Shown here: piece by piece, positions 8,751-58,015 of the stretch
How the letters are laid out: the number at the start of each line of letters is the position of its first letter
Numbering within the stretch: the stretch's first letter is position 1
The notes under the pieces: generated by a model
What the model saw: only the letters and a program-made list of their open reading frames with translations
What the model was told of the DNA's origin: nothing
Databases searched by the model: none
Program-made: the position numbers and the translations under genes
Source: a virus
Virus record (IMG/VR): IMGVR_UViG_3300020221_000005
Span: 39,352-103,351 of that record
Strand: one strand, 5' to 3'
DNA length: 64,000 bases

Positions 8751-8755
8751 AAAAT

Positions 8756-9577: not shown

Positions 9578-9598
9578 TAGTTTATTTAAATAAGTTTA

Positions 9599-9606
9599 TA
9601 TTTATA
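9599..9606 (+). promoter_or_regulatory. Late-promoter-like motif TATTTATA
   Basis: An exact TATTTATA copy in the 33-nt gap after the repeat gene, 4 nt before the ATG at 9611. There is no ribosome binding site between motif and start. Confidence 0.5.
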
Positions 9607-9610
9607 ATAT

Positions 9611-10432: not shown

Positions 10433-10434
10433 TT

Positions 10435-35097: not shown

Positions 35098-37953
35098 ATG
35101 CATGGTGGTAACAAAAAGGGAACAGTATACAATTTATTAAGTCGTGATGTGGATATCATCGACAAATCTTATAGATCCGACTATTTTATTGTGTCGGACT
35201 TGGGTTATACATTGACATCAGGAAAAAACTTTTTTACTATAAATGGTTCGAATAAATTAAAACCTAACGCGGCAATATTATTAGAAATTGTCGACTCTGA
35301 AAATAACGTTTTATATTATGAAACTGCAAAAAGTGGTTATTTCAAATATTTAGATACTACAGATTTGATCGTTGGCGTACATGTATATGAATCTACGCCT
35401 ATTGGGTTTGGCACAGTAACATTACTTGGAACAACGGTAGATGGGAAGTCAGTTCGATGGTCTACAAATATAAAAATAAACTCTAAATTAGAAAACTCTT
35501 CTAGAGTAGTGTTTTTCCAGGATCCAAAAATTGAGATTTCTGAATTTTTGTCATTTATTTTAAATCAAAATATCTCTCAACAGCAACAATTTATTAATGA
35601 AATTTCAGGAAATATATATTGTTATAGTAATTTTCCAAAAGCATATTCAGATATTAAATCTATAGATTTTACTAAATTTGATTCCGATTATCGATTACGT
35701 TATATAGATACTTCTTCTGTGAATTTTTTAAACTTATTTTCTAAAGATAATATAAATAATGAAATAATTCTTAATATAAAAGAAATAGCTTATTTAGATA
35801 ATAATGTATTAAAAACAGCTTCGTTAAATATCACAGAGTCTTTTAATGTAAAAAACGTAATAAATAATTTTGAATTGCAATTAGATAGACCATTTATATA
35901 TAAAATAAACACCGTTAATCAAGTTGTGCCAATTATTTCCGCGTCTTTTAATCATAAATTCTTTTCGAATATATATATCACTTCATCGGGTCTTACAGGA
36001 AGTGGAGATGGAACTCCTGCTCCGACTGTTTTTTTAAATCAACAAATAGAAGGTGAAACTAAATTTTTAAAAGAATCATTTTTAGATGTAACTTATAAAA
36101 ATTTAAAAACTCTTACAGGAAAAGTTCATCGTCACAAAATTTATAGACGAAGTTTAAATAAAGCCTCTGATTTTGAATGTATTGCGGATGAACCGTTGTT
36201 GGAAAAAGAATTTATAGCCGATACCTCCACGATCAACCGATTTTATTCAAATATAGGAGAATTTTATAATTTAGACCACATAAATAGATATTATTATACA
36301 AGTTCTTCAGATTTATCACTGTCACACAGTTCGGTTGAAGTTTTAAATTCTCTTGTGTGTAATATAAAAGATTTGAATCTTGACCAATCTAGATACATCA
36401 TCATAAAAAATGACACGTCTTTGAAAACTAAAAATGAACATTCTTCATCATATATAGACTATGACGATGCATCATTTTTAATTCAAACAGGATCATCATA
36501 TGATTCTAATTTTATAAAATTATATAAAAATGCTGATTATTTATTCTCGGCTAATTTAGAAATTGAAAAAATCTCTGCATCTTTAGAAAGTAAGCTATTA
36601 TTTTATTTTACTGGCTCCTACAACACTTCATCTGCGATAGTAGAAAAAAATTATTCGGTGGATAAAGGATTAATTTTACATCAATATGTTTTACCAATAG
36701 GAACTAATTTTAAAAGATTTACTAAAAAAGATTTTAACGAATTGTATTTTTTAAACGATTATGTTGGTACTATCGTAATTGTTCCTGTAAACATTAAAAA
36801 ATTTAGATTGGATAATCTTTCTTTGAAGTCTCATGCAGAACGTGGATTTTCTACTGATTCTTTTTTTACAAGAATTTCCTGTCCCGTCACAATTAAAAAC
36901 GAACAATTTGAAATAAAATCGGAGTTGTTGGATATTAATAATAATTCTATATATTCCGATTTAAACAAGATTATAGCCGTGGATAAATCCGGCGAAACTT
37001 TATTTAGAAATATCTCGGGCGTTGTTAATGCAAATGCTGAAACTGTACTCAATCTTATCGGATCCGGATCAGGAAAAATAAGTTTTAGCGCATCTCGCGA
37101 TGGCCAAGCGGCAACTTTATCTGTTATAGAAAGCTTTGATGTGATAATGGGCAGCCTTAATGGGGCTAGATTTTTTCAAGTGGAAAAATCGGGAAATGAA
37201 ACTTATATGAAGTTGTCTGGATCTTTTTATTTAACAGGTTCTCAATATATAAAAGATGGAGGCATCAGTGCTAGCGGTGCAATCAGTGGTAGCACGTTAC
37301 ATGGCACCACATTAATTACGTCGCCGATAGGCAACTTCATCAATTTAACAGCAAGCAACATCAGTGCCAGTAACTTAATCAGTGGTAGCACGTTACATGG
37401 CACCACATTAATTACGTCGCCGATAGGCAACTTCATCAATTTAACAGCAAGCAACATCAGTGCCAGTAACTTAATCAGTGGTAGCAAGTTACATGGCACC
37501 ACATTAATTACGTCGCCGATAGGCAACTTCATCAATTTAACAGCAAGCAACATCAGTGCCAGTAACTTAATCAGTGGTAGCACGTTATATGGCACCACAT
37601 TAATTACGTCGCCGATAGGCAACTTCATCAATTTAACAGCAAGCAACATCAGTGCCAGTAACTTAATCAGTGGTAGCAAGTTACATGGCACCACATTAAT
37701 TACGTCGCCGATAGGCAACTTCATCAATTTAACAGCAAGCAACATCAGTGCCAGTAACTCAATTAGCGGAAATTTATTTGGAACAAGTAGTTATGCTAAA
37801 ACCAGCAGTCTCGGTTATTTTGTGTTTAATCATGGGCATAATAATAATTTTACCGCTTCTAATTTCGGTCAGTCTGCCAGAACTGCGTCTGGATATATTA
37901 GAGCGAATGTAAATGGATCAGATATTTATATACCGTATTATTCAAATATATAA
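35098..37953 (+). CDS. Tail-fibre-like structural protein with five 32-residue repeats (951 aa)
   Basis: The N-terminal 700 residues are a beta-rich virion-type region (DYFIVSDLGYTLTSGKNFF..., IGFGTVTLLGTTVDGKSVRWS) without a recognised family. Residues about 729-888 contain five near-perfect copies of a 32-residue unit (ISGSTLHGTTLITSPIG / NFINLTASNISASNL), the same cassette as one copy in the protein at 323-2134. The last 60 residues (SSYAKTSSLGYFVFNHGHNN...IYIPYYSNI) look like a compact tip domain. Repeated shaft units plus a tip fit a trimeric fibre. Which phage organelle carries it is unknown. Confidence 0.65.
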   Translation: MHGGNKKGTVYNLLSRDVDIIDKSYRSDYFIVSDLGYTLTSGKNFFTINGSNKLKPNAAILLEIVDSENNVLYYETAKSGYFKYLDTTDLIVGVHVYESTPIGFGTVTLLGTTVDGKSVRWSTNIKINSKLENSSRVVFFQDPKIEISEFLSFILNQNISQQQQFINEISGNIYCYSNFPKAYSDIKSIDFTKFDSDYRLRYIDTSSVNFLNLFSKDNINNEIILNIKEIAYLDNNVLKTASLNITESFNVKNVINNFELQLDRPFIYKINTVNQVVPIISASFNHKFFSNIYITSSGLTGSGDGTPAPTVFLNQQIEGETKFLKESFLDVTYKNLKTLTGKVHRHKIYRRSLNKASDFECIADEPLLEKEFIADTSTINRFYSNIGEFYNLDHINRYYYTSSSDLSLSHSSVEVLNSLVCNIKDLNLDQSRYIIIKNDTSLKTKNEHSSSYIDYDDASFLIQTGSSYDSNFIKLYKNADYLFSANLEIEKISASLESKLLFYFTGSYNTSSAIVEKNYSVDKGLILHQYVLPIGTNFKRFTKKDFNELYFLNDYVGTIVIVPVNIKKFRLDNLSLKSHAERGFSTDSFFTRISCPVTIKNEQFEIKSELLDINNNSIYSDLNKIIAVDKSGETLFRNISGVVNANAETVLNLIGSGSGKISFSASRDGQAATLSVIESFDVIMGSLNGARFFQVEKSGNETYMKLSGSFYLTGSQYIKDGGISASGAISGSTLHGTTLITSPIGNFINLTASNISASNLISGSTLHGTTLITSPIGNFINLTASNISASNLISGSKLHGTTLITSPIGNFINLTASNISASNLISGSTLYGTTLITSPIGNFINLTASNISASNLISGSKLHGTTLITSPIGNFINLTASNISASNSISGNLFGTSSYAKTSSLGYFVFNHGHNNNFTASNFGQSARTASGYIRANVNGSDIYIPYYSNI
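37282..37761 (+). repeat. Five tandem 96-bp repeats in a fibre gene
   Basis: Copies begin at 37282, 37378, 37474, 37570 and 37666 and are nearly identical; most differences are at one codon (cacg/caag) and cat/tat. Each encodes one 32-residue shaft unit. A related single copy lies at about 836-925, with identical runs such as cgtcgccgataggcaacttc. Confidence 0.97.
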
Positions 37954-37964
37954 TATATATACAT

Positions 37965-38735
37965 ATGTCGCACATAAGTTTAATTAATCTTATAAAAGAA
38001 ACCAGATTGGCATCTAACCCTAAAGATCTGGAAAAAAATTCTGATAGATTAGAAACTTCTATAAATTTTCTTAAAAGCAAAAATAAAGTGTTGATTTTAG
38101 CCACGTCAAATCGATGGGAAGGGCACAAAGATGACGAAGCGAAATCTACGGTTTTAGCTAAAATTGTTCATGATAGATTGGGGTCTGATAAATCCACATT
38201 TATTGATGTTTCTAAATTAAATATTTTTGTTTGCGAAGGAAATGTTTCTACAAAGTGGGGTAACAATTGTGGGGTCAAAGAATCGATTTTAAAAGATAAA
38301 GATAAAAATCCTACTGGACAATTAAGATGCTGGGCTAGTGTTAATAATAAATCAGATGAGCTTTGGAAAATTTCAAAGGTGTTATTTGAGAGCGACTGCA
38401 TTCTTTTTTTCACTTCAATTCGGTGGGGGCAAACTAACAGCATATATCAAAAATTAATAGAGAGATTGACGTGGTTAGAAAATCGACACACTACGTTAGG
38501 CGAGTCTAATATATTAAAAGATAAAGATGCGGGTATGATTGCTATAGGTCAAAACTGGAACGGTAGTCGGGTAATAGATACTCAAAAAGATATTTTTAAT
38601 CATTTCGGATTTAATGTTCCTGCGGAAATTTCTTGGAACTGGCAGTATACGGAAGATAAATATGATGAAACTAAAAATTCATATAAAAAAGCAATAACTA
38701 CATTTAATGACACGTTTAAATCGCATGAAAAATAA
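37965..38735 (+). CDS. Flavodoxin-like / NADPH-dependent FMN reductase-type protein (256 aa)
   Basis: The fold pattern is strand VLILATSNRWEGH at about residues 42-54 (phosphate-binding loop position), helix DEAKSTVLAKIVHDRL, strand for FIDVSKL, and ESDCILFFTSIRWGQTNSIYQKLIERLTWL, which matches the W-G-x-x-x-x-x-x-K-x-x-x-D-R region of flavodoxin-like reductases. AGMIAIGQNWNGS gives the next strand. Such proteins use FMN and NAD(P)H. The role in infection is not known. The start of the next gene lies inside its end (11-nt overlap), indicating coupling to the nucleotidyltransferase protein. Confidence 0.6.
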   Translation: MSHISLINLIKETRLASNPKDLEKNSDRLETSINFLKSKNKVLILATSNRWEGHKDDEAKSTVLAKIVHDRLGSDKSTFIDVSKLNIFVCEGNVSTKWGNNCGVKESILKDKDKNPTGQLRCWASVNNKSDELWKISKVLFESDCILFFTSIRWGQTNSIYQKLIERLTWLENRHTTLGESNILKDKDAGMIAIGQNWNGSRVIDTQKDIFNHFGFNVPAEISWNWQYTEDKYDETKNSYKKAITTFNDTFKSHEK

Positions 38736-41583
38736 ATACTATGAAATTTTAAAATCTGAAATTGATGAAATAGTTGAAGAATACATACAACATATTTTGT
38801 CAGAAAGTTTAGACGTTAGTATTAAACATTTAAATAAAGAAATAGACACAATTCAAAAAGCGTCTAACTTTATCAGTAAAAAGTTACATGTAGAAGAAAA
38901 AATAGATGGTACAAAACTAATTTTAGTAAGAAAAAATACAGATTCTTCAAATTATTCGGATAATTGGATTGTATCTTATAAAGGAAATATTTTGCATCCT
39001 GAAGAATTTGAACATTTTAATGAGAAGGATATAAAAGACATAAGTTCTAAATCTATAGGTATTTCTCAGTATAAAAATGTTTTTGAAAAGCTTAAAAAAA
39101 TAAATGATAAAATTTCTTTGGTTCCAAAAAATACTGCGTTTAGTTTAGAATTTGCTCAAAATAAAGACACATTGACTCGAACATATGTAACTACTCAAGC
39201 TTTATTTTTACGGTCTTTTGCGAATGTAAAATATTATGTAAATGACGGATTTTTGACTATTTCTAGTACAAGCGGAGAAATTACAGATTTTAATAGTATA
39301 AATGATATGGCTCGAATACTGGATATCTATACTTTTCCGGTAATTTTAGACGGATATATTAATACTAGAGAAAATTTTATTTCTGCAATAAAGTCTGATG
39401 AACTTCTTGGTATTTTTAATAAAACCGAAATAAATTTCGACGATTCTCTTGATATAATTTCTAAATTTTCTAAAATGATGGTATCGTTTTCATCTAAGTT
39501 AGGCGGAAAGCCAGAAGGCGTGGTGATACATACTTCAGATAATAAATTATATAAAGTTACACAGTCGGATCAATACGATTTAACCGTTAGGAGTAATAAA
39601 AAATTATCATCTCAGATGGATGCTGAATCTGAAAAAGAATATCAAAATAAAATTTCTGAACTTGCAAGGGGATTTGTAGATAGACTTGATTTTAGTAATT
39701 CGGTTGAAAATTTATTAAAAACGTATAATGATTTTATTAAAAAAGTTGATTTAGAAAAAATACACCATTCTAAAAAATCTCGTATAAATAAGATCGACGA
39801 TCTCATGTTAGCGGGAAAGTTTTTAATACAGAGATACGTTTTTTCTGGAAGAAATACAAAAACTTTGGGATTGGTTCCAATGGCAGCAAAACCTGTACAT
39901 TTGGGCCATTGGAAGTTAATACAACTCGCGTCGAAAGAAAATAATAATGTGATTGTTTATATTAGCGAAAAAGATCGTATCAAAAAAGGAGAGTATCCTA
40001 TAACAGGAAATCAAATGATACAGATATGGAATGAAATCTTAAAACGATATCTGCCAAATAATGTAAAAATAAAATTTGTAGACAGTCCTGTTTCTGCGGT
40101 TCGTTATATGCTTTTAGATTTAGATAAAGAATTTAATGAATCGCCTATCGTGAACATATATTCCGACATAGACGACATAAATTCATATAACTCAGAAGAA
40201 TTCAAATCAAAATATAAAAATTTATTTGGTTTAAATAAAATTAAATTAAGAGGGATAGAACGTTCTCACACGGTTGATATAAGTGGAACAAAAATGCGTG
40301 AATTTTTACAAAATGATGATAAACTTTCATTTACTAAAAATTTGCCCGATATTTCTGATTTAGACAAAGAGAAAATATATAACTTAATAAAAAATATTTC
40401 AAGATCAAAAACTTTGAACGAAAGTGGTCAATCGATTGCATCGATTGATCCTAAGACTCCTAAAACAGTTAACGGCAAAACTGCTAGAGCTGATAAAAAA
40501 CTCAATATTTCTGGTGGAAATAGAACAATTATTTCTGACCATATAAGAGATTTAGCTATTACCTTAAATAAACATATAAATTTTTGGAATCCAAACAATC
40601 CATATATTAAAAGCGGTTATATCTTTAATGGAAGTTCACAGCATCTAATGAATCCTGATGTGGATGATATATTAAGGAAAAAAACCGGCGATCCTGACAT
40701 TTCTTTGGAAAAAATAAAATCTGATTACGGTGATATAGATATTATTGTTCCTATAACTAAACTAGATGAACTTAAGAAATTTTTAGACACAAAGGATGAT
40801 AATAAAAGTGAATGGGAACCTGGATCAGAAAATAAAATAACCGACCAATTTTTTTATGTCGGTAGAACAAAGAGTGCCGCAGCAATACCTGATCAATTAG
40901 TTACTATTTTTTGGTACAAACCAAATAATCAAATTGTTCAGGTTGATTTCGAGGGAGACAATATGGTTAAAGATCAGCAAGGTTATGAGAAACCTTCTGA
41001 ATGGACTAAATTTTCAAAAGATTCTCCATTAGATGATTTGGCTAAAGGAATTAAAGGATTGGCAGGCGCAATTTTATTACGGTCATTAGCTAGAGGAACT
41101 ACCAGATTAGAAAATGTAATAGTTCTGACTCCCGGCGGAGTCAAAAAATATAAAGAAAAAAAAGAAATAACAGACAGGGAAATTTCTAAAAATAAAAGAG
41201 ACTCTATTCCATCTGAATATACTCTAAATACAGGCGGCGGAGGTGCAGGAATAAGAAAAGCTTATAACTATGTTGGAAAAATAAATAATAAAGATGCTTA
41301 TGAGTTTGTAGAAGCGCGAACGGCAAAAGATATGGGAGAAAAATTTGTATCAATTACAAATTTATCAAAAATATTTGAAATAATTTTTAAAAAATCTCCC
41401 ACATCGGATGACTTAAATAACTTTAGAAGTTTTCAGGGTCTTTTAAAAATGATGCGAGATAACTTAGACAAAAAAACTATAAATATTGTATTGAACAGAT
41501 TCGTGGAGATTATAAAAACCGAAAATATTTCTTCTACTGAAAAATCTGCTATAGAAGACATGATTAAATCTACTTTAACATAA
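38725..41583 (+). CDS. Three-domain protein: ATP-dependent RNA/DNA ligase-type, HIGH-type nucleotidyltransferase, Pol-beta-type nucleotidyltransferase (952 aa)
   Basis: Start set at ATG 38725; ATG 38707 in frame would add six residues. Domain 1 (about 45-300) has ligase motif I EEKIDGTKL (K59), FSLEFA, EGVVIHT and KLYKVTQ with K277, the covalent nucleotidyltransferase set. Domain 2 (about 378-540) has LGLVPMAAKPVHLGHWK (H392, H395; HxGH) and DISGTKMR, the pair that defines NMN adenylyltransferase/cytidylyltransferase-type enzymes. Domain 3 (about 600-860) has FNGSS, YGDIDIIV (D670, D672) and VQVDFEG (D741), the three-Asp pattern of Pol-beta nucleotidyltransferases. The substrates are not readable; RNA end repair or NAD-linked chemistry are candidates. 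Confidence 0.75.
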   Translation: MKNKYYEILKSEIDEIVEEYIQHILSESLDVSIKHLNKEIDTIQKASNFISKKLHVEEKIDGTKLILVRKNTDSSNYSDNWIVSYKGNILHPEEFEHFNEKDIKDISSKSIGISQYKNVFEKLKKINDKISLVPKNTAFSLEFAQNKDTLTRTYVTTQALFLRSFANVKYYVNDGFLTISSTSGEITDFNSINDMARILDIYTFPVILDGYINTRENFISAIKSDELLGIFNKTEINFDDSLDIISKFSKMMVSFSSKLGGKPEGVVIHTSDNKLYKVTQSDQYDLTVRSNKKLSSQMDAESEKEYQNKISELARGFVDRLDFSNSVENLLKTYNDFIKKVDLEKIHHSKKSRINKIDDLMLAGKFLIQRYVFSGRNTKTLGLVPMAAKPVHLGHWKLIQLASKENNNVIVYISEKDRIKKGEYPITGNQMIQIWNEILKRYLPNNVKIKFVDSPVSAVRYMLLDLDKEFNESPIVNIYSDIDDINSYNSEEFKSKYKNLFGLNKIKLRGIERSHTVDISGTKMREFLQNDDKLSFTKNLPDISDLDKEKIYNLIKNISRSKTLNESGQSIASIDPKTPKTVNGKTARADKKLNISGGNRTIISDHIRDLAITLNKHINFWNPNNPYIKSGYIFNGSSQHLMNPDVDDILRKKTGDPDISLEKIKSDYGDIDIIVPITKLDELKKFLDTKDDNKSEWEPGSENKITDQFFYVGRTKSAAAIPDQLVTIFWYKPNNQIVQVDFEGDNMVKDQQGYEKPSEWTKFSKDSPLDDLAKGIKGLAGAILLRSLARGTTRLENVIVLTPGGVKKYKEKKEITDREISKNKRDSIPSEYTLNTGGGGAGIRKAYNYVGKINNKDAYEFVEARTAKDMGEKFVSITNLSKIFEIIFKKSPTSDDLNNFRSFQGLLKMMRDNLDKKTINIVLNRFVEIIKTENISSTEKSAIEDMIKSTLT

Positions 41584-43887: not shown

Positions 43888-45822
43888 ATGGATTCGAACG
43901 ACGCCAAAAAACCAATAGATTTAAAATCAAAAAGTCTTTTTGCAAAATTAAAAAGGTTGTTTTCCACGGATGTAGTGGTAAGAAATGTTGGTGGAAAAAT
44001 GTTAAAGATAAAGGATACTGATCAGATTCAGTATGCCACCGATAGAAATACTCTCAGAGATAGATTTAATAGAATACGTACTTCTGGCTATAGTCAATAT
44101 AGTCGTGATTTTACGATGGCGTATCAGTCGTCTAGAATAGAATTATTCCGCGATTATGATGTTATGGATATGGATCCAATAATATCATCCGCACTTGATA
44201 TTTACGCAGATGAGTGTCTTACGCAAAATGAAATGGGTTATGTTCTTAATGTAAAGGCCGATGATAATAATGTTAAAAGAATACTAGAAAATCTGTATTA
44301 TGATATTCTTAACATAGAATTCAATTTATGGAGTTGGACACGAAATATGTGTAAATATGGAGATTTTTATTTAAAATTACACATTAGTCCTGAATATGGA
44401 ATTTATTTGGTTGAACCGTTATCCGCATACAATGTTTCTCGTGTAGAAAATAGTGATCCGATGAACAAAAATTACATCAAATATCAAGTTAACTTTGAAA
44501 GTGGTGTAATGGAAGAGTTAGAAAATTATCAAGTGGCACATTTTAGATTATTATCTGATAGTAATTTTCTTCCATATGGCAAATCTATGGTTGAAGGATC
44601 TAGACGTGTTTGGAAACAATTAAGTTTAATGGAAGATGCGATGTTAATACATCGTATTATGCGGGCTCCTGAAAAAAGAGTATTTAAAATTGACGTAGGA
44701 AATATACCTCCCGGAGAAATTGATAATTTTATGGAACGTACCATGAATAAAATGAAAAAGGTTCCTTATATAGATGAAAAAACCGGCGATTATAATCTCA
44801 GATTTAATTTACAAAACATGGTGGAAGATTTTTATTTGCCTGTTCGTGGTGGAGATAGTGGAACTGATATTCAACCTTTATCCGGCATGGAATTTACCGG
44901 TACGGATGATATTGAGTATTTAAGAAATAAAATGATGGCCGCTTTAAAAATTCCCAAAGCTTTTTTGGGATATGAAGAAGATCTATCTGGAAAAGCCACA
45001 TTAGCGGCTGAAGACGTTAGATTTGGTCGAACCATTCACCGTATTCAAAAAATATTGATTAGCGAATTGACAAAGCTCGGCGTAGTTCATTTATACTCTC
45101 AAGGATTTACTGATGAAAATTTGGTTAATTTTAGCTTAGAATTAACAAATCCATCAACTATCTTTGAAAAAGAAAAAATTGATATTTGGGGAAATAAAGT
45201 GACGGTGGCCAAAGATATGATGGAAAATAAATTGTTTTCTAAAGATTGGATATATAAAAATATTTTTAATATGTCGGATGAGGACGTATTGAATACAAAT
45301 AGCGAAGTTGTAGAAGATGCCAAACAGAGTTGGAGGTTTAAACAAATAGAAGAAGAAGGTAATGACCCCGCATCTTCTTTACAAAAAATAAATAAAGATG
45401 GAGAATCGGAAGACGCGGGCGGTGGTTCTGATGAAACTTCTAGCGAAACTTCTAGCGAAACCCCTAGCGAAACCCCTAGCGAAACCCCTAGCGAAACCCC
45501 TAGCGAAACCCCTAGCGAACCTGCTAGCGCAGCTCCGCCATTAGCCGAAAAAACAGATCGACCTTCTCAAAAAGGGAAAAAAGACGCAAGAAATTACCCA
45601 TTTGGAGAAGATCCGCTGGGAAGATTAGAGAATCGAGCCGATTATCGTAAAAATCCGATTTCCCATAAATATAAAAATCAATCACCGTTAGGGTTTGAAT
45701 CTTTAAATTTAGGTAAATTATCAGATTTTTTGGCTAAAGATGATAAAAAAGAAAAATTGAAAGAATCTTCAAAAGTTAAATCTTTATTAGATGAGAATAA
45801 TATAATAGATAATTTAAAATAA
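43888..45822 (+). CDS. Portal protein, T4 gp20-like (644 aa)
   Basis: The central part contains the family segments DYDVMDMDPIISSALDIYADECLT, VNFESGVMEELENYQVAHFRL, YGKSMVEGSRRVWKQLSLMEDAMLIHRIMRAPEKRVFKIDVGN and EYLRNKMMAALKIPKAFLGYEEDLSGKATLAAEDVRF. The gene lies between terminase and protease as in T4. Portal dodecamers form the DNA channel. An unusual Ser/Glu/Thr/Pro repeat (residues about 516-547) sits in a C-terminal extension beyond the crown; most of the extra length compared with T4 gp20 (524) is in this tail. Confidence 0.95.
   Translation: MDSNDAKKPIDLKSKSLFAKLKRLFSTDVVVRNVGGKMLKIKDTDQIQYATDRNTLRDRFNRIRTSGYSQYSRDFTMAYQSSRIELFRDYDVMDMDPIISSALDIYADECLTQNEMGYVLNVKADDNNVKRILENLYYDILNIEFNLWSWTRNMCKYGDFYLKLHISPEYGIYLVEPLSAYNVSRVENSDPMNKNYIKYQVNFESGVMEELENYQVAHFRLLSDSNFLPYGKSMVEGSRRVWKQLSLMEDAMLIHRIMRAPEKRVFKIDVGNIPPGEIDNFMERTMNKMKKVPYIDEKTGDYNLRFNLQNMVEDFYLPVRGGDSGTDIQPLSGMEFTGTDDIEYLRNKMMAALKIPKAFLGYEEDLSGKATLAAEDVRFGRTIHRIQKILISELTKLGVVHLYSQGFTDENLVNFSLELTNPSTIFEKEKIDIWGNKVTVAKDMMENKLFSKDWIYKNIFNMSDEDVLNTNSEVVEDAKQSWRFKQIEEEGNDPASSLQKINKDGESEDAGGGSDETSSETSSETPSETPSETPSETPSETPSEPASAAPPLAEKTDRPSQKGKKDARNYPFGEDPLGRLENRADYRKNPISHKYKNQSPLGFESLNLGKLSDFLAKDDKKEKLKESSKVKSLLDENNIIDNLK
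45433..45528 (+). repeat. 12-bp tandem repeat in the portal C-terminal extension, 8 units
   Basis: Units of gaaacttctagc, gaaacccctagc and a last gaacctgctagc encode (E-T-S/P-S) repeats. The middle five units are identical, which points to recent slippage expansion. Confidence 0.95.
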
Positions 45823-47566: not shown

Positions 47567-48181
47567 ATGAATAAACAATTATTAACAAATTGTATTCCTT
47601 TTCAAACAGTAAAAACTACGCTGAATGAATCTACGTCGGTAGCAGGAAAAATGGTGGTCTCAGGAATTTTACAAAGAGCCAATGCAAAAAATCAAAATGG
47701 TAGAATTTATCCATTAGATGTTCTTAAACGAGAGGTTGAAAAGTATAATCAAACTTTTGTAAAAGAAAAACGTGCGGTAGGAGAACTTGATCATCCAGAT
47801 AGTGAAGTTGTAAATCTTAAAAATGTTTCTCATAATATTACTAAAACTTGGTGGGACAATAACGATTTAATGGGTGAAGTGGAAATTTTAACTACTCCGA
47901 GTGGAAATATTTTAAAAGAACTATTAAAGTGTGGAATTACCGTTGGAATTTCCAGCCGAGGATCAGGTTCGGTAAAAAAAGTAAATGAAAGTACTGTTGA
48001 AGTCAACGATGACTTCTCACTAATAGCTTTTGACTTTGTTAGCAATCCTTCGACTGTTGGAGCTTTTATGTTACCCGAGTCTCCTTTGAATGAATCTGTA
48101 AAAATTTTACAAAATCCCATTACTAACAAATGGGAAACTGTGGAAAAAATAATACGTGATATTATTAACGAAATAAAATAA
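47567..48181 (+). CDS. Prohead maturation protease, T4 gp21-like (204 aa)
   Basis: The start is placed at ATG 47567, 4 nt after the upstream stop; a longer frame reaches back to 47426 but only translates the neighbour's repeat out of frame. The protein has RANAKNQNGRIYP, AVGELDHPDS (His76) and VGISSRGSGSV (Ser129/130), the His-Ser signature of the S77/gp21 protease fold, followed by DFVSNPST. Length is close to T4 gp21 (212). It cleaves scaffold and capsid precursors, both encoded downstream. Confidence 0.92.
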   Translation: MNKQLLTNCIPFQTVKTTLNESTSVAGKMVVSGILQRANAKNQNGRIYPLDVLKREVEKYNQTFVKEKRAVGELDHPDSEVVNLKNVSHNITKTWWDNNDLMGEVEILTTPSGNILKELLKCGITVGISSRGSGSVKKVNESTVEVNDDFSLIAFDFVSNPSTVGAFMLPESPLNESVKILQNPITNKWETVEKIIRDIINEIK

Positions 48182-48255: not shown

Positions 48256-49923
48256 ATGATCGACTGGATTCGAGAAAAGGTAATTGTAAATGGTAAATTG
48301 TTGCCTGAAAGAAGTAAGAAGTCGTGGTTTATAAAAAATGGTCACTGCGATCGATATGATGAAATAGTCAGTCAAACTTCTTTCTTAAAAGATCCCACTT
48401 TTGCACAAAGAATTTGGCACGTTTATCACAATCAATCTTTTCTTTCAAAATGTTGTAATCCTAAATGTGAAAGAATTCCAAAGTTCTTTTCTTTTTCTAA
48501 AGGTTATTTAAGAACGTGTTCATCAACATGCGCGCAACATGATCCACAAACAATAAATAAAATTAAATCTACAAACATTAAAAAATATGGAGTGGAGTAT
48601 GGATTAAGCAACAAAGAAATAAAAGAAAAAATAAATAAAACAGTAAAACAAAAGTATGGTGTAGATAACGTTTCACAATTAAAAGAAATATCGGAAAAGA
48701 AAGTAAAAACTTGTTTTGAAAATTATGGAGTAAAGTGGATATTGAGTGATCAAAAAAGAAAAGAAAAAAGTATATACAAAAAGTATGGCGTTAAAAATGT
48801 TAGAAATTTAAAAAATGTGAACGATAAAATTTCTGCCACTCGTCGTGGCGGTTTTTACGATTACTTGTTTGTGTCAGATAGATTAAGAGGCAAGGTTTTA
48901 CCTTTATTTACAAAAGAGGAATACGTAAATGGGGGTTATTATTCTGACTACAAATTTAAATGTTGTAAATGTAATGTTGAATTTGTGGATTGTTTGGAAG
49001 ACGGAGACATCCCTCGATGTAATGTTTGTTATAAAAATTCATCGTTGTTTGAGAAAGAAATTGTAGATTTTGTTAGGGCGACATTGATCAACGAAGTGGT
49101 CGAAGAGAATAATAAAAAAATATTAAATGGTTATGAGATTGATGTGTATGTTCCTTCAAAGAAAATCGCAATAGAATGTGATGGATTATTTTGGCATGGA
49201 GAAATCAATGGTCTAAAAGATAAAAACTATCATTTAAATAAAACAAAAGAATGTTTGGATAAAGGTATAAGATTAATTCATATATTTGAAGACGAGTGGT
49301 TGTTTAATAAAGAGATCGTTAAGAATAGACTAAAATATATGTTGGGTTGTGAAACAAATAAAATTTATGCGAGAAATTGTAATGTTAGAATTATAGACTC
49401 TAAAAAATGTTGTGACTTTTTAGAAAAATATCACATTCAAGGAAAAGATTCTAGTAGTATAAAATTGGGGTTGTTTCTTGGAGAGGAGTTAGTATCCACG
49501 ATGACGTTCGGAAATATGAGAACGTGCCTTGGAAATAAAAATAATAATTCTGAATACGAATTATATAGGTTTTGTAATAAAAACATCAGCGTCGTGGGTG
49601 GATTCAGTAAATTATTGAATTTTTTTATAAAAACATACAATCCAAATAAAATTATTAGTTATGTCGATCGAAGGTGGAACGATGGAAAATCATATGAAAC
49701 GGTCGGATTTAAATTTGTGAAATCTACACCGCCGAATTATTGGTATTTTGGTAAAAACAAAAATTATAAAAGACATCACAGATTTAATTTTGCAAAACAC
49801 ACATTAAAGAATAAGTTGTCTAATTTTGATAATAATTTAACTGAGTGGGAGAACATGAAAAATAACGGATATGATAGAATTTGGGACTGTGGCAATATAA
49901 AATACGAATTATTTTATAAATAA
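48256..49923 (+). CDS. Vsr/EDxHD-like homing-type endonuclease (555 aa)
   Basis: Order of parts: N-terminal zinc-type region (CCNPKCERIPKFF...TCSSTCAQ), four to five repeats of the K-K-Y-G-V-x-x form (residues about 105-190), a second Cys cluster (CCKCNVEFVDC..PRCNVC), a nuclease core GYEIDVYVPSKKIAIECDGLFWHGE...KTKECLDKGIRLIHIFEDEW (about 294-350), and a C-terminal domain YHIQGKDSSSIKLGLF...STMTFGNMR...DRRWNDG...WENMKNNGYDRIWDCGN. The core resembles very-short-patch-repair-type nucleases used by free-standing homing genes. A paralogue is encoded on the other strand at 51301-53079. Its own promoter and ribosome site suggest independent expression. Confidence 0.75.
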   Translation: MIDWIREKVIVNGKLLPERSKKSWFIKNGHCDRYDEIVSQTSFLKDPTFAQRIWHVYHNQSFLSKCCNPKCERIPKFFSFSKGYLRTCSSTCAQHDPQTINKIKSTNIKKYGVEYGLSNKEIKEKINKTVKQKYGVDNVSQLKEISEKKVKTCFENYGVKWILSDQKRKEKSIYKKYGVKNVRNLKNVNDKISATRRGGFYDYLFVSDRLRGKVLPLFTKEEYVNGGYYSDYKFKCCKCNVEFVDCLEDGDIPRCNVCYKNSSLFEKEIVDFVRATLINEVVEENNKKILNGYEIDVYVPSKKIAIECDGLFWHGEINGLKDKNYHLNKTKECLDKGIRLIHIFEDEWLFNKEIVKNRLKYMLGCETNKIYARNCNVRIIDSKKCCDFLEKYHIQGKDSSSIKLGLFLGEELVSTMTFGNMRTCLGNKNNNSEYELYRFCNKNISVVGGFSKLLNFFIKTYNPNKIISYVDRRWNDGKSYETVGFKFVKSTPPNYWYFGKNKNYKRHHRFNFAKHTLKNKLSNFDNNLTEWENMKNNGYDRIWDCGNIKYELFYK

Positions 49924-50897: not shown

Positions 50898-51311
50898 ATG
50901 ATACAGTTAAAAAATTTATTGCCTGAAAACACTCAAGCTCCACAACCACAAGAAAATCAAAGTGGTGTTTCGGAAACTTCTTCCAAATTGACCATCGAAC
51001 AAAAAAGAAAATTATCGGAGATGGTATCCCGATATAATGAATATGGAAAAATACTTTATCGTGAGAAAAAAATAACGGAGATTGCTCAGAATTTACAAGA
51101 AATCTCCGATTTAGCAGAAAACTATGCTTTAAATGAATGTGGTGATTGGTTTGAGGAGAATATAGTTAAAAGAAACTTTCAAGAAATGAAAAAATATTGT
51201 GAACAGTTTGGAAAATTAGCAAAAGAAACTCAATCCAAACAACATCAAATGGAAGCTCTATACGAAGATATGGGACATATCTTAGAGAGATATTTTGAAA
51301 TTAAAGGTTAA
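50898..51311 (+). CDS. Helical protein before the scaffold region (137 aa)
   Basis: A Pro/Gln-rich N-terminal linker (LPENTQAPQPQENQS) precedes a helical bundle or coiled coil (TIEQKRKLSEMVSRYNEYGKILYREKK...KLAKETQSKQHQMEALYEDMGHILERYF). The size and position match small prohead core proteins of T4-like phages, but no motif confirms it. Its last 11 nt overlap the end of the minus-strand endonuclease gene. Confidence 0.55.
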   Translation: MIQLKNLLPENTQAPQPQENQSGVSETSSKLTIEQKRKLSEMVSRYNEYGKILYREKKITEIAQNLQEISDLAENYALNECGDWFEENIVKRNFQEMKKYCEQFGKLAKETQSKQHQMEALYEDMGHILERYFEIKG

Positions 51312-53079
51312 GTTCGTATTTAAGATTTCCGCAATCCCAAATTCTATCATATCCATTTAATTGCATATTTTCCCATTCTGTCAGTGATGAATCGAAATTA
51401 TTTAATCTGTTTTTCAATTCCGATTTTCTAAATGTAAATCTGTGGAACCTTTGTAGATAATTTTTCTTATTGACGTAAAAATAATTTGGGCTAGTTTTTT
51501 TACAAAAAATGAATCCCAGTTTTTTGTAAAGATTATTTAAATTAAACGACCATCTTCTGTCTGCGTAGCTTATAATTTTTTTGGGATTGTAATTTTTAAT
51601 AAAATTGTTTAGTAATTTTTCGGCTCCGCCTATAACAACATTTTCCGAACAATATCTTATTAATTCGTATTCGTTATTATTGACGTTAATATTTCCTGTG
51701 ACACGCCTAAGTTGTCCGAATGACATTGTGGATATTAATTTATCTTTAAAAAATAATCCTAATTTTATTTTTGCCGGCGTAAATCCTTGCAAATGATTAT
51801 TTTCTATAAATTCACGATATTCTTTCGTTGATATTGTTTTTACAATACAATTTCTTGCATATATTTTTTCAACTTTTCCTATTTTTAGTATACTTTTTAT
51901 ACGATTTATTATAATATTCTGTTTTAAACGCCATTCATCTTCAAATATATGAATTAGTCTTATATTCTTGGATTCACATAATTCGGTTTTATTTATGTGA
52001 TATTGTTTATTCTTTAAGCCACCAAGTTCACTGTGAAAATAATTTCCGTTCATTTCTATAGCGACTCCCTTATCTGGAAAATAAATGTCTAATTCTAGTC
52101 CATCACACACAACTTTATCATTAAAAATTAAATTTTTTAATCCTAAATCATCTATTAAAAAATTCTTTAGTTCAGATTCCATCAAGGATTTTTCTTTCTT
52201 AGAAGGATTACATTTTAAACATTGTGGAAAATTGCCGTCATCTAATGTGTCCAGAAATTCTTGATTGCATTTCATGCACTGAAATTTATATTTATGGCCG
52301 ACTCCTTCATAATCTTCAATTGAAAATAAAGGTTTATATAATTTTTTGAGTCTTTCTCCATTAATCAGTGAGTTATATAATTTCAACAAAGATCTTTTCT
52401 TGCTTTTTTTTCTGGCCTCTTCTGTTTGAGAATAACAATTTACATTAAAGTTTTTTTTATAAAAATTTTTGGTTTTTTCTTTCTTATCGTTTGAAGATAA
52501 ATAATATTCGGTTCCATATTTTTTTAAATTTGTATTTTTTGATTTATCTAAAAATATTTTATCCTTCATCGGATGTTCTACCCCATATTTTTTAATACAT
52601 GTTTGTTTACACTTTTCTTTATATTCTTGAGTTTGCGAATAAAATTCTACTCCGTATTTTTTAATATTCTTTAATTTCAAATCACGTTTAAAGTTTTCAG
52701 TTTTAAAGATATTATCAACTCCATATTTTTTAACAATCGCATCTTTAGATTTATTTTTAACATCGTTTGATTGCATTGCATCTTTAACGCCGTATTTAGA
52801 CAAACAAGTTAATTGTGCTTTTTCTCTTAACTCTGACGACATTCCAGCGTTTTTAACTCCATACTTTTTAAGCATTGTGTCTTCTCTTTTTAACTTGATG
52901 CATGAAATGTTTTCACACACATCAATATCAGATTTTGAATTTTTTCTGGCAGAATATATGTTTAAAGATTTTTTTTCAAAAATACACCCGCATAAATCAC
53001 ACTTAACGACGATGTGTTTTATCGAAAACTTAGAAGGTATTTCTCCAAATTTTTTAATGGTTAATTCATTATCAATCAT
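51301..53079 (-). CDS. Vsr/EDxHD-like homing-type endonuclease, minus strand (592 aa)
   Basis: The start is ATG at 53079 with AGGAG five bases upstream; the open frame extends further to 54066 only as antisense of the scaffold gene. The parts match the paralogue at 48256: Cys pair near the start (CDLCGC), about six K-K-Y-G-V repeats (residues 100-260), a CMKCNQEF..CLKC cluster, a nuclease core LELDIYFPDKGVAIEMNGNYFHSE..IRLIHIFEDEW, and the same C-terminal domain ending WENMQLNGYDRIWDCGN. It faces against the late genes and separates a small core protein from the scaffold/capsid operon, typical of a mobile insertion. Confidence 0.75.
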   Translation of the reverse strand: MIDNELTIKKFGEIPSKFSIKHIVVKCDLCGCIFEKKSLNIYSARKNSKSDIDVCENISCIKLKREDTMLKKYGVKNAGMSSELREKAQLTCLSKYGVKDAMQSNDVKNKSKDAIVKKYGVDNIFKTENFKRDLKLKNIKKYGVEFYSQTQEYKEKCKQTCIKKYGVEHPMKDKIFLDKSKNTNLKKYGTEYYLSSNDKKEKTKNFYKKNFNVNCYSQTEEARKKSKKRSLLKLYNSLINGERLKKLYKPLFSIEDYEGVGHKYKFQCMKCNQEFLDTLDDGNFPQCLKCNPSKKEKSLMESELKNFLIDDLGLKNLIFNDKVVCDGLELDIYFPDKGVAIEMNGNYFHSELGGLKNKQYHINKTELCESKNIRLIHIFEDEWRLKQNIIINRIKSILKIGKVEKIYARNCIVKTISTKEYREFIENNHLQGFTPAKIKLGLFFKDKLISTMSFGQLRRVTGNINVNNNEYELIRYCSENVVIGGAEKLLNNFIKNYNPKKIISYADRRWSFNLNNLYKKLGFIFCKKTSPNYFYVNKKNYLQRFHRFTFRKSELKNRLNNFDSSLTEWENMQLNGYDRIWDCGNLKYELNL

Positions 53080-53329
53080 AATATCTCCTATATCTACATA
53101 TAGTATACATATTGTTACGTTAATAAAATAATTTAATTTTTTTTGTTTTTTATTTATTTTATTTATATTTATAGTCAATGGGTGTGGAACCATCCTAAAT
53201 AAACTAAGTAGAAATTGTCTACAGTAGTTCCTGTTTAAATACAATATCTTCATATATTGTTGAATGAAATTTAACTTCAATTGAAGTTCAACAATAACTT
53301 CATAAAAATTAAAAACATAAATTAAAATT
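53080..53329 (+). promoter_or_regulatory. Capsid-operon leader region with late promoter, mini-ORF and hairpins
   Basis: The 250-nt gap has no gene. It holds the minus-strand endonuclease's AGGAG (53085-53089) and -10-like TATACT (53102-53107, minus), a late-promoter-type TATTTATA (53166-53173), and 4 nt after it a six-codon ORF MGVEPS (53178-53198). Further on are a hairpin GTAGA/TCTAC (53208-53222), and nested inverted repeats: TTGTTGAA (53257-53264) with TTCAACAA (53287-53294), and the 16-bp palindrome AACTTCAATTGAAGTT (53273-53288). A transcript from the box would have a leader of about 150 nt, unlike other late genes here. Confidence 0.5.
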
Positions 53330-54493
53330 ATGACAAGTGAACTCTTAAAAGAGGCAATTGCTGACGCCAAGGCCGTCCGTGCAACTGCCATTGCAAATGC
53401 AAAACTCGCATTGGAAGAAGCCTTTACTCCAAGATTACAATCCATGTTAGGGCAAAAACTTCGTGAAGAACTTGATGAGAACGAATTGGAAGAATCCTCT
53501 GATGATACGACTGAAAATATCACTTCGGAAGAAGTTGATGAAATGTTAAAAGAGCTTGATGTGGAGAAAGCAGATGAAAATGCCGCCCCTGCTGCTACCG
53601 TTGCTGCAGATCCTACTGCCGCTCCTGTTGCTGCCGATCCTGCTGCCGCTCCTGCTGCTGCCGCTCCTGCTGCTGCCGCTCCTGCTGCTGCCGCTCCTGC
53701 TGTTGCCGATCCTGCTGCTGCCGCTCCTGCTGCCGCTCCTGCTGTTGTCGCTCCTGCTGTTGCCGCTCCTGCTGCCGATCCTGCTGCCGATCCTGCTGCC
53801 GCTCCTGCTGTTGCCGCTCCTGCTGTTGCCGCTCCTGCTGCCGATCCTGCTGCCGATCCTGCTGCCGCTCCTGCTATTGATTCCAAGACTGTTTCTGAAA
53901 GCGACGATTCGGATGAGGTTGATTTAGAGGAACTTCTCGCTGAAATAAATGAGATGGACGTCGACAGTATGACTGAGGAAGACGACGGCATGACTGAGGA
54001 AAACGACAGTATGACTGAGGTTGATTTAGATGAACTTCTCGCTGAACTAAATAAAGAGGGAGACACAGAACACGATGAAGACGATGATACTAAAACCTCA
54101 GAAGCCGTTAAATCTGAATTAAATGAGGCTTTGAAAACCGTAGAGTTTTTAAAAACTCAGTTAAATGAAGTGAATTTGTTGAATGCGAAATTGCTTTATA
54201 CCAATAAATTATTTAAAGCACATGCATTAGACAACAACCAAAAAATGAAGATTATTGAAGCGTTTGATTTGACCAAGTCCGTCCGTGAAGTCAAATTGAC
54301 CTACAATAATTTGTCTGAAGCATTGAATCTTAGCAAAGTGAAGACTGCTCCTAAGAAGTCTCCGATTGCTGAAGGCTTCGCATCAAATACAACTGGAACA
54401 ACCAAGCCCGTTCAGGCAGAGAAATCTGTCATTTCGGAGTCGGTTAACGGACAGGTTTCGAGATTCCAAAAACTCGCTGGAATTAAGAAATAA
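53330..54493 (+). CDS. Prohead scaffold protein, T4 gp22-like (387 aa)
   Basis: The protein is highly acidic and helical and lies directly before the major capsid gene, downstream of the gp21-like protease. The N-terminal helix (ELLKEAIADAKAVRATAIANAKLALEEAF) and the C-terminal part (EALKTVEFLKTQLNEVNLLNAKLLYTNKLFKAHALDNNQKMKIIEAFDLTKSVREVKLTYNNL) follow the pattern of gp22-type scaffolds in marine myophages. Residues about 84-183 are an Ala/Pro/Asp-rich low-complexity insertion. The end reads SVNGQVSRFQKLAGIKK, a likely capsid-contact tail. It should be degraded by the protease. Confidence 0.8.
   Translation: MTSELLKEAIADAKAVRATAIANAKLALEEAFTPRLQSMLGQKLREELDENELEESSDDTTENITSEEVDEMLKELDVEKADENAAPAATVAADPTAAPVAADPAAAPAAAAPAAAAPAAAAPAVADPAAAAPAAAPAVVAPAVAAPAADPAADPAAAPAVAAPAVAAPAADPAADPAAAPAIDSKTVSESDDSDEVDLEELLAEINEMDVDSMTEEDDGMTEENDSMTEVDLDELLAELNKEGDTEHDEDDDTKTSEAVKSELNEALKTVEFLKTQLNEVNLLNAKLLYTNKLFKAHALDNNQKMKIIEAFDLTKSVREVKLTYNNLSEALNLSKVKTAPKKSPIAEGFASNTTGTTKPVQAEKSVISESVNGQVSRFQKLAGIKK
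53581..53877 (+). repeat. Ala/Pro/Asp tandem repeat in the scaffold gene
   Basis: Units of 9-15 bp such as gctgctgccgctcct and gctgccgatcct recur in mixed order for about 300 bp, encoding AAAP, AVAP and AADP runs. A 60-bp-scale segment appears twice (around 53760 and 53820), indicating internal duplication. Confidence 0.9.
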
Positions 54494-54532: not shown

Positions 54533-56194
54533 ATGAGTGATATTAAAGAATTGTTAACTAACAATACGAATCCTATGAGCCGCCTCTTGGAGGAGACTCG
54601 TGGATTACAAGGCAAGTGGGAAAAAACCGGCTTGCTCGAGGGGTTGGCTGGTACCGAAAAGGCTCAAATGTCTGTATTGCTTGAGAACCAAGCACAGCAG
54701 TTGATCAAAGAGGCTACCTCAACCGGAACTAGCGCAAACAGTGAACAGTGGGCAGGCGTAGCTCTTCCGCTCGTTCGCCGTGTGTTCGCTGAAATCGCTG
54801 CGAAGGAATTCGTAAGCGTTCAACCAATGAATCTTCCAAGTGGACTTATCTTTTACTTGGATTTCAAATATGGTAATACTAAATCAGGAGTCACGAGTGG
54901 AGATAGTCTATTCGGCGGAACTTTAAAGAAACTTGGTTCTACTGACAGTGCCGTTAATGGTTTGTATGGTGCCGGTCGTTTTGGATACACCATTAATCCT
55001 GTTTCTGTAGCAGCTACATTAAATACAGGCTCCACATCAGGTTTGACTGTCTGGGAAGCTTGTAATTTTGATGCAGACTTCAGCGCAAGTGCTGCTGCCG
55101 GAACTTATCAAAAATTCACAATTAACTTAGCTTCAAACTCTGATAATTTAGATTTGAACGCGATTAGAAGTTTCAACTTCTTCTCTGCTTCTGTAGATTG
55201 TGGAGTTTTGGATCAGTTCACAAAAGTTTACAATACTGGCTCTGCAACATCTCCATATTATGTAGTTACTGGAGTGGGATTAAGCAGCGTAATTGATCAC
55301 GCAGCTGGAGCTTACAGCGTAACTATTTCTGGAAGCAAACAGCCAACAGATTCTACTCGTGGTGACTTTGAAGATAAAAACAGCACCGGTGATAGCACCA
55401 CAGCTGTTGGTATTCCTGAGGTCAACCTTGAACTCAAGAGCGAACCGATCGTGGCTAAGACCCGCAAGTTAAAAGCAGTCTGGACTCCAGAGCTTGCTCA
55501 GGACTTGAATGCCTACCACAGCATTGATGCTGAGGCAGAATTGACTGCTCTCTTGAGTGAGTATGTTTCTATGGAAATCGATCTCGAAATCCTCGACATG
55601 CTGTTGGTTTCTGCTCCTGGAACAACCACCGAAGCTTGGAGTGCTAAAATTGGCGTAGAGTTTACCAAAACTCTCGATAGCGATGGTAATGCTTCATTTA
55701 CTCGCCTTGACGACAGTTCTCCAAACAGAACCGCCTATGTCAAGAGTTCTTGGTTCCAGACCCTCGGAAGCAAGATTCAACGTGTCTCTAACAAGATTCA
55801 TCAGTTGACTCTCCGTGGTGGAGCTAACTTCTTGGTTTGTTCTCCAGATGTCGCAACCGTCCTCGAATCAATTCCTGGATTCGTTGCTTCAACCGATGGT
55901 GATAGTGCTAAGTTCGCAATGGGTGTAAGCAAAGTTGGTAGCTTCGCAAGTCGCTTCCAGGTTTACAAGAACCCATACATGGTTGAAAACCAAATCTTGG
56001 TTGGATTCCGTGGAAGTAACTTCCTCGAAACTGGCGCAGTCTATTCGCCATATATTCCTCTCGTTCAGACACCACTCGTGTATGATCCAGTCAACTTCAC
56101 GCCACGCCGTGGGGTAATGACAAGATATGCGAAGAAAGTCGTTCGTCCGGAATTTTATGGTCGTATTCAGGTTGCTGACTTGAACCACGTCTAA
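54533..56194 (+). CDS. Major capsid protein, T4 gp23-like (553 aa)
   Basis: Family features include the N-terminal MSVLLENQAQQLIKEAT, WAGVALPLVRRVFAEIAAKEFVSVQPMNLPSGLIFYLDFKYG (residues about 73-115), KTRKLKAVWTPELAQDLNAYHSIDAEAELTALLSEYVSMEIDLEILDML, and SNFLETGAVYSPYIPLVQTPLVYDPVNFTPRRGVMTRYAKKVVRPEFYG at the end. TGLLEGLAG (E36/G37) fits the L-x-E/G cleavage rule of T4-type prohead proteases. Codon use is visibly more GC-rich than that of neighbours, as in highly expressed genes. A strong terminator follows. Confidence 0.95.
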   Translation: MSDIKELLTNNTNPMSRLLEETRGLQGKWEKTGLLEGLAGTEKAQMSVLLENQAQQLIKEATSTGTSANSEQWAGVALPLVRRVFAEIAAKEFVSVQPMNLPSGLIFYLDFKYGNTKSGVTSGDSLFGGTLKKLGSTDSAVNGLYGAGRFGYTINPVSVAATLNTGSTSGLTVWEACNFDADFSASAAAGTYQKFTINLASNSDNLDLNAIRSFNFFSASVDCGVLDQFTKVYNTGSATSPYYVVTGVGLSSVIDHAAGAYSVTISGSKQPTDSTRGDFEDKNSTGDSTTAVGIPEVNLELKSEPIVAKTRKLKAVWTPELAQDLNAYHSIDAEAELTALLSEYVSMEIDLEILDMLLVSAPGTTTEAWSAKIGVEFTKTLDSDGNASFTRLDDSSPNRTAYVKSSWFQTLGSKIQRVSNKIHQLTLRGGANFLVCSPDVATVLESIPGFVASTDGDSAKFAMGVSKVGSFASRFQVYKNPYMVENQILVGFRGSNFLETGAVYSPYIPLVQTPLVYDPVNFTPRRGVMTRYAKKVVRPEFYGRIQVADLNHV

Positions 56195-56300: not shown

Positions 56301-56495
56301 TTATTTTCTAAAACTTTTAATGATTATACTGATTGGAAGCCAAATTGGTACGGTTAAGACAGACCACTTGATAAAAAAGAATGCTAAATACACCAGCGCT
56401 GGGATACACAACCAATAATACATCCAAGGTTGGGAAAGGACTTCAATATCATACTTCCAAAGATTGAATAGAATTTCTATTATTTTATCGTTCAT
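56301..56495 (-). CDS. Small membrane protein (64 aa)
   Basis: Two hydrophobic segments (about residues 24-43 and 44-60: YWLCIPALVYLAFFFIKWSVLTVPIWLPISIII) in a 64-residue protein with a short charged N terminus. The start overlaps the GMP reductase stop by 4 nt (ATGA), so it is the last gene of the minus-strand operon. No family is recognised. Confidence 0.6.
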   Translation of the reverse strand: MNDKIIEILFNLWKYDIEVLSQPWMYYWLCIPALVYLAFFFIKWSVLTVPIWLPISIIIKSFRK

Positions 56496-57487: not shown

Positions 57488-57961
57488 TTATTCAGTATAC
57501 TCGCAGATGTATGTGGTTATTGGAGTTTTATCGTAAATTGTATTAATCATTGTGGATACAATCTGCCAATTTCCTCCTGCTAATCCACATCCCATGTATT
57601 TTGGAAATCCAACTTTTTTTATATTTTTTTCTATACAATCTTTTTTCATAGAATCGATTGCAGTATATATGGCTTCATAATTTAAATTTCTTTCGTTAGA
57701 TCCATAGTAATACTGGCCATATAAATTATATACATATTTTATTGAAGAGTTTTCTTTAAATTTCTTAATTTCGGCCAAAGAAAACGTTCCTAATTTATTT
57801 TTATTTCCCGCGATTGTTTTTAAATCTGACTCATATGTTTCAGGCATTTTATTTTTTAATTGAAATGCAATTCCTCCGCCCATTGTACAAAAACAATTTG
57901 CACAATGTCCGATTGCGTCTACTTCGCATTTTAATAGATCACATTTTATATTAATTACCAT
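57488..57961 (-). CDS. Macro domain protein, ADP-ribose-1''-phosphatase-like (157 aa)
   Basis: Start placed at ATG 57961; a TTG one codon earlier is also open. The family pattern is clear: VINIKCDLLKCEVDAIGHCANCFCTMGGGIAFQLKNKMP (ligand-binding loop GGGIA), VYNLYGQYYYG, then VGFPKYMGCGLAGGNWQIVSTMI, the G-C-G-L-A-G-G-x-W signature of the Poa1p-like ADP-ribose-1''-phosphatase branch. Macro domains bind or hydrolyse ADP-ribose and derivatives. In a phage this could process tRNA-splicing by-products, remove ADP-ribose marks or soak up NAD-derived signals; none of these is shown by the sequence alone. Confidence 0.85.
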   Translation of the reverse strand: MVINIKCDLLKCEVDAIGHCANCFCTMGGGIAFQLKNKMPETYESDLKTIAGNKNKLGTFSLAEIKKFKENSSIKYVYNLYGQYYYGSNERNLNYEAIYTAIDSMKKDCIEKNIKKVGFPKYMGCGLAGGNWQIVSTMINTIYDKTPITTYICEYTE

Positions 57962-58015
57962 CAATTTGATGATATAGATAACTTAATAAAATTCAATATT
58001 TTATATTTGTTAAAA

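Follow-up and report, generated by a model that had tools for sequence, protein, structure and literature searches.

The window analysed here is a stretch of 64,000 nucleotides from a virus (positions 39,352 to 103,351 of the IMG/VR record IMGVR_UViG_3300020221_000005, which holds 103,351 bases), and the gene under study lies on its + strand at 38707..41583. On the basis of the list of open reading frames (ORFs), an AlphaFold2 (AF2) model and homologues, it encodes a putative polyprotein in which an RNA-ligase-like domain, a HIGH adenylyltransferase domain and a Pol-beta-type nucleotidyltransferase (NTase) domain follow each other in a single chain. The protein counts 958 amino acids from the first ATG (38707) and 952 from the second one (38725); residues are numbered according to the 958-residue form, so that K59 and K277 of the shorter form become K65 and K283. 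The surroundings are those of a T4-like head region, with genes for the terminase large subunit, the portal, a gp21-type prohead protease and a gp23 capsid protein found downstream. Other IMG/VR contigs carry copies of the ORF at 100% identity as well as relatives at 78% and at 40-55%. Searches of Pfam and NCBIfam with the whole protein returned nothing beyond sub-threshold HIGH matches, and a single-sequence search of the PDB with the whole protein gave no informative match. The AF2 model of the whole protein (21 rows) displays a mean predicted local distance difference test score (pLDDT) of 84.9, with values below 50 at residues 1-8, 23-32, 426-429 and 565-583.

The first domain, delimited by Foldseek and conservation, resembles the Trl1/Rnl2 RNA ligases, has a helical C-terminal part and covers residues ~34-378 (38806..39840, + strand). 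Its ligase motif I reads K65-I-D-G and the further catalytic residues are E148, E270-G and K283. Catalytic residues were counted in non-redundant homologues of each domain (n = 51 for the ligase, 56 for HIGH and 48 for the NTase); K65, D67, G68, E148, E270, G271 and K283 are kept in all ligase homologues covering the position, a single one being gapped at motif I. In Foldseek comparisons with the PDB the best match of the ligase domain is the fungal Trl1 (9r3w, E 9.5e-7), T4 Rnl2 is found at E 6.5e-6, and archaeal and Naegleria ligases and REL1 are matched as well, the top matches taken together having E values from 1e-6 to 1e-3. No DNA ligase appears among the top 50 PDB matches of this domain. 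As modelled, the first domain thus has the fold of an RNA ligase. An RNA-type substrate is favoured because of this fold, the polynucleotide kinase (PNK)-like partners seen in relatives and the phage-borne tRNA genes and transfer-messenger RNA (tmRNA), and RNA is probably what the enzyme joins. Within the initial 39 kb of the record (L037, L038), 8 genes for tRNA and one for a tmRNA (L038 17225-17600) are predicted.

The HIGH domain, of the NadM/NadR-like adenylyltransferase type, follows at residues ~379-562 (39841..40392, + strand) and was delimited by PDB profile search, Foldseek, PHROGs and conservation. Its motifs are H398-L-G-H401 and ISGTKMR (525-531), and H401 and S526 are present in 56/56 homologues. 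A profile of the alignment covering the ligase and HIGH domains (Lig-HIGH) finds the nicotinamide mononucleotide (NMN) adenylyltransferase 9x6f in the PDB with an E value of 6.6e-9, and Foldseek matches the domain to NMN adenylyltransferase, NadM, ATP sulfurylase, NadR and PPAT. The arginine of the ISxTxxR motif is found in 12/12 fusion proteins versus 10/44 split homologues. Such a domain could adenylylate a 5'-phosphate end, by a chemistry like that of NMN plus ATP, or make nicotinamide adenine dinucleotide (NAD+).

The C-terminal part (residues 573-958; 40423..41580, + strand) was examined through an AF2 model of the domain alone (41 rows; pLDDT 91.9, predicted template modelling score 0.88), Foldseek, conservation and its match to phrog_19290. 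In Foldseek, DNA polymerases beta and mu come out as the best meaningful matches, with a probability of ~0.9 but an E value of only 0.06-0.09, and a profile of the NTase compared with PDB sequences found no relative. Its active-site residues are GS 642-643, D676-x-D678 and D747; the three aspartates are found in 48/48 homologues and the GS pair in 46/48. From the Pol beta and Pol mu matches, taken with the invariant residues (GS, DxD and the third Asp), the domain is best read as a very divergent Pol-beta-type NTase. RlaP (PF10127) was considered as an identity for this NTase and ruled out, 7 of 8 module phages having no match to that family; the PF10127 match of the eighth, G007, belongs to a separate gene and not to the module NTase. 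An earlier note, made from the letters of the window, had proposed three nucleotidyl-transfer folds with intact active sites in one protein, and the models and the conservation among about 50 homologues per domain bear this out: the catalytic residues are essentially invariant in all three domains, and the ligase and HIGH folds are matched firmly, the Pol-beta fold more weakly.

The three domains also occur together well beyond this phage. Of the 43 non-redundant Lig-HIGH loci that have sufficient flanking sequence, 14 show a fusion to the NTase and a further 25 encode it close by in the same locus (39/43 altogether), and 2 of the remaining 4 have an NTase elsewhere in the genome. Ligase, HIGH domain and NTase are hence a real module and not one odd protein. 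Split versions are found in phages of Vibrio, Campylobacter, Stenotrophomonas and Xanthomonas: Vibrio phages have a separate Lig-HIGH gene with the NTase gene ~1.3 kb upstream of it, a large distance separates the two genes in Campylobacter group II phages, and both Stenotrophomonas phage Moby and Xanthomonas phage X1 carry a row of genes for an NTase, an unknown protein, a KxDG protein and finally a HIGH protein. In four loci (L076, L093, L094, L104) a P-loop kinase stands between NTase and Lig-HIGH (PF13671, E 1.8e-9; polynucleotide kinase phrog), and some other intervening genes display PD-(D/E)XK-like and nuclease-like motifs when inspected by eye. Aligned together, the intervening genes form no common family; at least two groups can be told apart, besides a kinase. 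Degenerate Lig patterns, when run against genomes of bacteria and archaea, yielded a single small contig of a metagenome-assembled genome, hence the module appears to be phage-borne. PADLOC gave no defence-system match. The earlier note did not recognise the combination as one described, and we likewise found no description of it in the open-access papers searched, including jumbo-phage and NAD-ADPr surveys.

Several variants of the module were noticed. Seventeen distinct fusions (e.g. L015 3223-7143) hold an extra segment, located between HIGH and NTase, in which Pol-beta-like motifs can be seen by eye, and in L015 and ~16 similar fusions an [LF]xE/GGW site (a slash marks a putative cut, here and below) precedes the extra Pol-beta-like segment. 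L023 and L024 each carry two tandem MGGN NTase genes. In L027 a 1285-residue protein with a weak match to the PARP catalytic domain (7381-11238, E 4.1e-4) is encoded between the NTase gene and the HIGH gene and is an Alt-like candidate.

The chain also carries features of proteins that are processed in the T4 prohead. T4 gp21 cleaves after L/I-x-E, and in the T4 internal protein IPIII the first ten residues are enough for head targeting, residues 4 and 7 serving to target and residues 8 and 10 to process (PMC9026906). In the 958 residues the motif [LI]xE[ASG] occurs only twice, as ILSE/SLDVSIK and TLNE/SGQS, both at domain boundaries in low-confidence linkers. The first closes a putative capsid-targeting propeptide (residues 1-33; 38707..38805, + strand; predicted site ILSE/S), proposed from the sequence, the product masses, homologous propeptides and the T4 motif, and the second lies in a linker (residues 563-572; 40393..40422, + strand; predicted site TLNE/S), proposed from the low pLDDT at 565-583 and homologous sites. 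Cutting at both would release a Lig-HIGH enzyme of 62.1 kDa and an NTase of 43.4 kDa, both with a calculated isoelectric point (pI) of ~9. The predicted processing enzyme is present in the window as a T4 gp21-type prohead protease (Peptidase_S77; 47567..48181, + strand; PF03420 E 3.9e-30, phrog_207), and the gp23-type major capsid protein (54533..56194, + strand; PF07068 E 6.3e-76) holds the candidate site LIKE/ATSTG, read from the sequence, as an instance of the protease motif in this phage.

Homologues display the same arrangement. T4 IPIII and IPII begin with MKTYQEFIAE/A and IPI with MKTFKEF...ITE/A; ligases of the module begin with MKTFKQYITE/AKAMLDISI (L105), a near match to the former, MKRFSDLIFE/AANKTKLDISI (L076) and MKLRDFINE/SKEQLDISI (L104), the targeting-like peptide standing in each case just ahead of the start of the conserved ligase domain. 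A predicted cleavage site is found in 28/36 longer ligase starts, and T4-like targeting peptides are carried by ligases, NTases and kinases. The NTases either start directly with M-GGN or are extended by additional N-terminal residues, the last of which, hydrophobic-x-E, directly precede GGN (SG[QK]S or AEGKS in fusions). This signature stands at the mature start point in 36/36 genuinely extended NTases, strictly as [LI]xE in 33 of them, against a background of 0.8%; the 36 rows are not independent and represent ~ten lineages that are only distantly related, and the window protein (internal GGN) together with L010, L064 and L088 (overcalled starts) was scored by hand. NTases with and without the predicted cut therefore converge on one mature N-terminus. 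In cyanophages, moreover, proteomes of virions frequently include HIGH-type cytidyltransferases (PMC10665884). From these sequence features we strongly infer that the chain is a prohead polyprotein which would be packaged in the head and cut there, a reading that is new in this analysis; injection into the host would follow by analogy with the T4 precedent.

Beyond the domain folds (less certain for the NTase), the active-site conservation and the co-occurrence of the module, which the computations show, the best explanation is a capsid-packaged, protease-cut and injected nucleic-acid end-repair kit, most likely for cleaved tRNA or other RNA, to which we give a probability of roughly 0.55. According to this explanation the N-terminal propeptide would direct the polyprotein to the T4-type prohead core, where a gp21-type protease would cut after E33 and E572 to give a 62-kDa ligase/HIGH enzyme and a 43-kDa NTase. 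Both would stay with the packaged DNA, be injected, and work jointly in the host on broken nucleic-acid ends, likeliest those left in tRNA after cleavage or in other RNA. The NTase would restore or add nucleotides at a 3' end, the HIGH domain would adenylylate either an end bearing a 5'-phosphate or some small molecule, and the ligase would seal via lysyl-AMP at K65; in some relatives the 5'-phosphates would come from the PNK-like kinase. The suggestion in the earlier note of a self-contained RNA end-repair device is thus retained in part: the composition (RNA-ligase fold, NTase and, in relatives, PNK-like kinase) agrees with it, RNA as substrate being the conjectural element, and the gene is indeed fused, but cleavage in the head is predicted to split the single chain into Lig-HIGH and NTase.

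A number of observations weigh against the repair kit. The HIGH step is the weakest link of the proposed mechanism and, to our knowledge, no RNA-repair role has been assigned to any NadR-like domain. In the models, the fold match of the NTase is weak, making it the least certain of the three domains by fold. On the side of packaging, the scan finds no site in 8 of the 36 longer ligase starts, in some cases through overcalled starts, many fusion relatives begin directly at MDISIK, with no targeting peptide at the N-terminus, and the Moby and X1 versions show no clear cleavage site. The 11 named virion bands of CP220 do not include module proteins, and the authors of the cyanophage proteomes themselves caution about carry-over (PMC10665884).

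Other explanations share part of this evidence. The enzymes could be the same and simply unpackaged, with LxE motifs as ordinary linkers and late RNA repair taking place only in the producing cell; the several versions devoid of targeting peptides would fit, but the exact agreement between cut and uncut N-termini, seen in all extended NTases, and the T4-like peptides on ligases, NTases and kinases would not, and we consider this improbable. Packaging is kept and RNA given up if the proteins act in DNA end repair resembling non-homologous end joining, a packaged ligase, a PolX-like NTase and the PD-(D/E)XK-like nucleases of relatives trimming, filling and sealing breaks in the incoming genome or other DNA. 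The polymerases beta and mu as closest structural neighbours of the NTase, the nuclease-like motifs seen by eye in intervening genes and the predicted travel of the proteins with the DNA are in its favour. However, the ligase fold matches RNA ligases and not DNA ligases, such a scheme leaves no role for the HIGH domain, and T4-like phages already own a DNA ligase (T4 gp30), so that DNA repair, the strongest of the competitors, is still unlikely.

A link of NAD metabolism to ligation had been the other suggestion of the earlier note. In the form considered here, the HIGH domain would make NAD+ from NMN against an NAD-depleting defence, with ligase and NTase in secondary roles. The profile and structure matches to NMNAT, NadM and NadR and the intact HLGH and ISGTKMR of the window protein speak for it. 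Nevertheless, NadV, the partner expected in phage NAD+ salvage, is absent from G000 (a partial record) and from 12/15 module-bearing records (some of them fragments), though phages with NadM always carry NadV (PMC9503650), and 34/44 split homologues lack the ISxTxxR arginine. These two facts weaken the idea, which we hold to be about as improbable as the unpackaged variant. Finally, the transferases could be injected effectors that nucleotidylylate host proteins instead of repairing nucleic acid, in the manner of T4 Alt, a head-packaged transferase (PMC9026906), and the PARP-domain protein adjoining the NTase in L027 would suit this; since the RNA-ligase fold and the neighbouring PNK-like kinases speak for nucleic-acid ends, it seems the least probable of all.

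Compared with known systems, the proposed packaged repair kit resembles T4 IPI-III and Alt in its short propeptide ending in L/I-x-E, the near-identical targeting peptides of its homologues, its basic pI and the accompanying gp21-type protease and gp23, but differs from them by three enzyme domains per chain and an internal site; it has no sequence relation to the IPs or Alt. With phage RNA repair (T4 Rnl1/Rnl2 and PseT; RNA ligase and RlaP) it shares the RNA-ligase fold, a Pol-beta-type NTase and, in some relatives, a PNK-like kinase. The T4 RNA-repair enzymes are made after infection, whereas capsid packaging is predicted here; moreover the NTase is not RlaP and a HIGH domain is added. The pairing of RlaP with RNA ligase (PMC7824862) is the same idea as that of ligase and NTase. 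The fungal tRNA ligase Trl1, to which the ligase part is structurally closest, has kinase and phosphodiesterase domains and no HIGH or Pol-beta domain. Phage NadM/NadR NMN adenylyltransferases share the HIGH domain by profile and structure, but here it is fused to an RNA ligase and not to a Nudix or riboside kinase domain, and NadV is mostly absent.

A cyanophage cluster of DUF6267 and cytidyltransferase genes (phrog_1462, phrog_455, phrog_3041/395) likewise combines a KxDG protein with a HIGH protein, and phrog_455 fuses both. In S-H9-1 it comprises gp143-145 (L116 632-4061), i.e. phrog_1462, DUF6267 (KWDG) and the cytidyltransferase, and phrog_1462 is also found among the genes between NTase and Lig-HIGH in L102 and L103. 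In the stretch of the cyanophage cluster that was examined no Pol-beta NTase turned up, and DUF6267 has no significant sequence match to the ligase domain of the window protein. The S-H9-1 cluster may nonetheless be a relative of the module and a lead for the function of DUF6267.

The interest of the system rests on combining two known kinds, phage RNA repair and T4-type packaged proteins. A broader proposal, which we advance only tentatively, is that T4-like phages of several host groups inject a machine for RNA repair which travels in the capsid (ligase, HIGH adenylyltransferase and Pol-beta NTase, sometimes with kinase and nuclease, from a polyprotein matured by the prohead protease) and which mends damage to tRNA or other RNA caused by host defences before phage gene expression. 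If so, the packaged set would be active at time zero, ahead of anticodon nucleases or other RNA-cutting defences halting translation, T4-type protein injection, so far a matter of single inhibitors (IPI) and of Alt, would come to include a repair kit of several enzymes for nucleic acid, and a function would be suggested for families at present labelled unknown (phrog_27149, phrog_19290, phrog_12709 and possibly phrog_1462 and DUF6267).

Immediately upstream, and overlapping the start of the polyprotein gene, lies an FMN-reductase-like gene (37965..38735, + strand; PF03358 at a sub-threshold E of 3.1e-4, and motif scan). Its product has a targeting-like N-terminus, MSHISLINLIKE/T (LINLIKE/T), and the L002 homologue reads LIKE/A; these sequences hint faintly at possible co-packaging. 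Small proteins of the same genome start with a sequence like MKKSELKQLIRECxxE (L037 486-953, 10489-11373 and 11333-11620; L038 16955-17194), a motif which may be the phage group's own targeting peptide. Just before the FMN-reductase-like gene, a fibre-like ORF (35098-37953) contains tandem protein repeats at 37242-37745 (HGTTLITSPIGNFINLTASNISASNLISGS).

Among the head genes, two similar ORFs (48256-49923 and 51301-54066) display ...NGYDRIWDCGN(L/I)KYEL ends and KYGV repeats, the latter ORF lying on the - strand and overlapping 53330-54493; both are perhaps mobile or homing genes. Adjoining the capsid gene on the - strand, a macro-domain-like protein (57488-57964) and a GMP-reductase-like enzyme (56492-57484) were recognised by eye. 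The portal gene of the window (43888-45822) is free of the in-frame intein-like insertions seen in the portal genes of L002 (6074-7648; CVGPDTVIPLPDG...CFVSN) and L014 (9517-12330), and a similar insertion occurs in a gp47-like gene of L013 (7113-11261).

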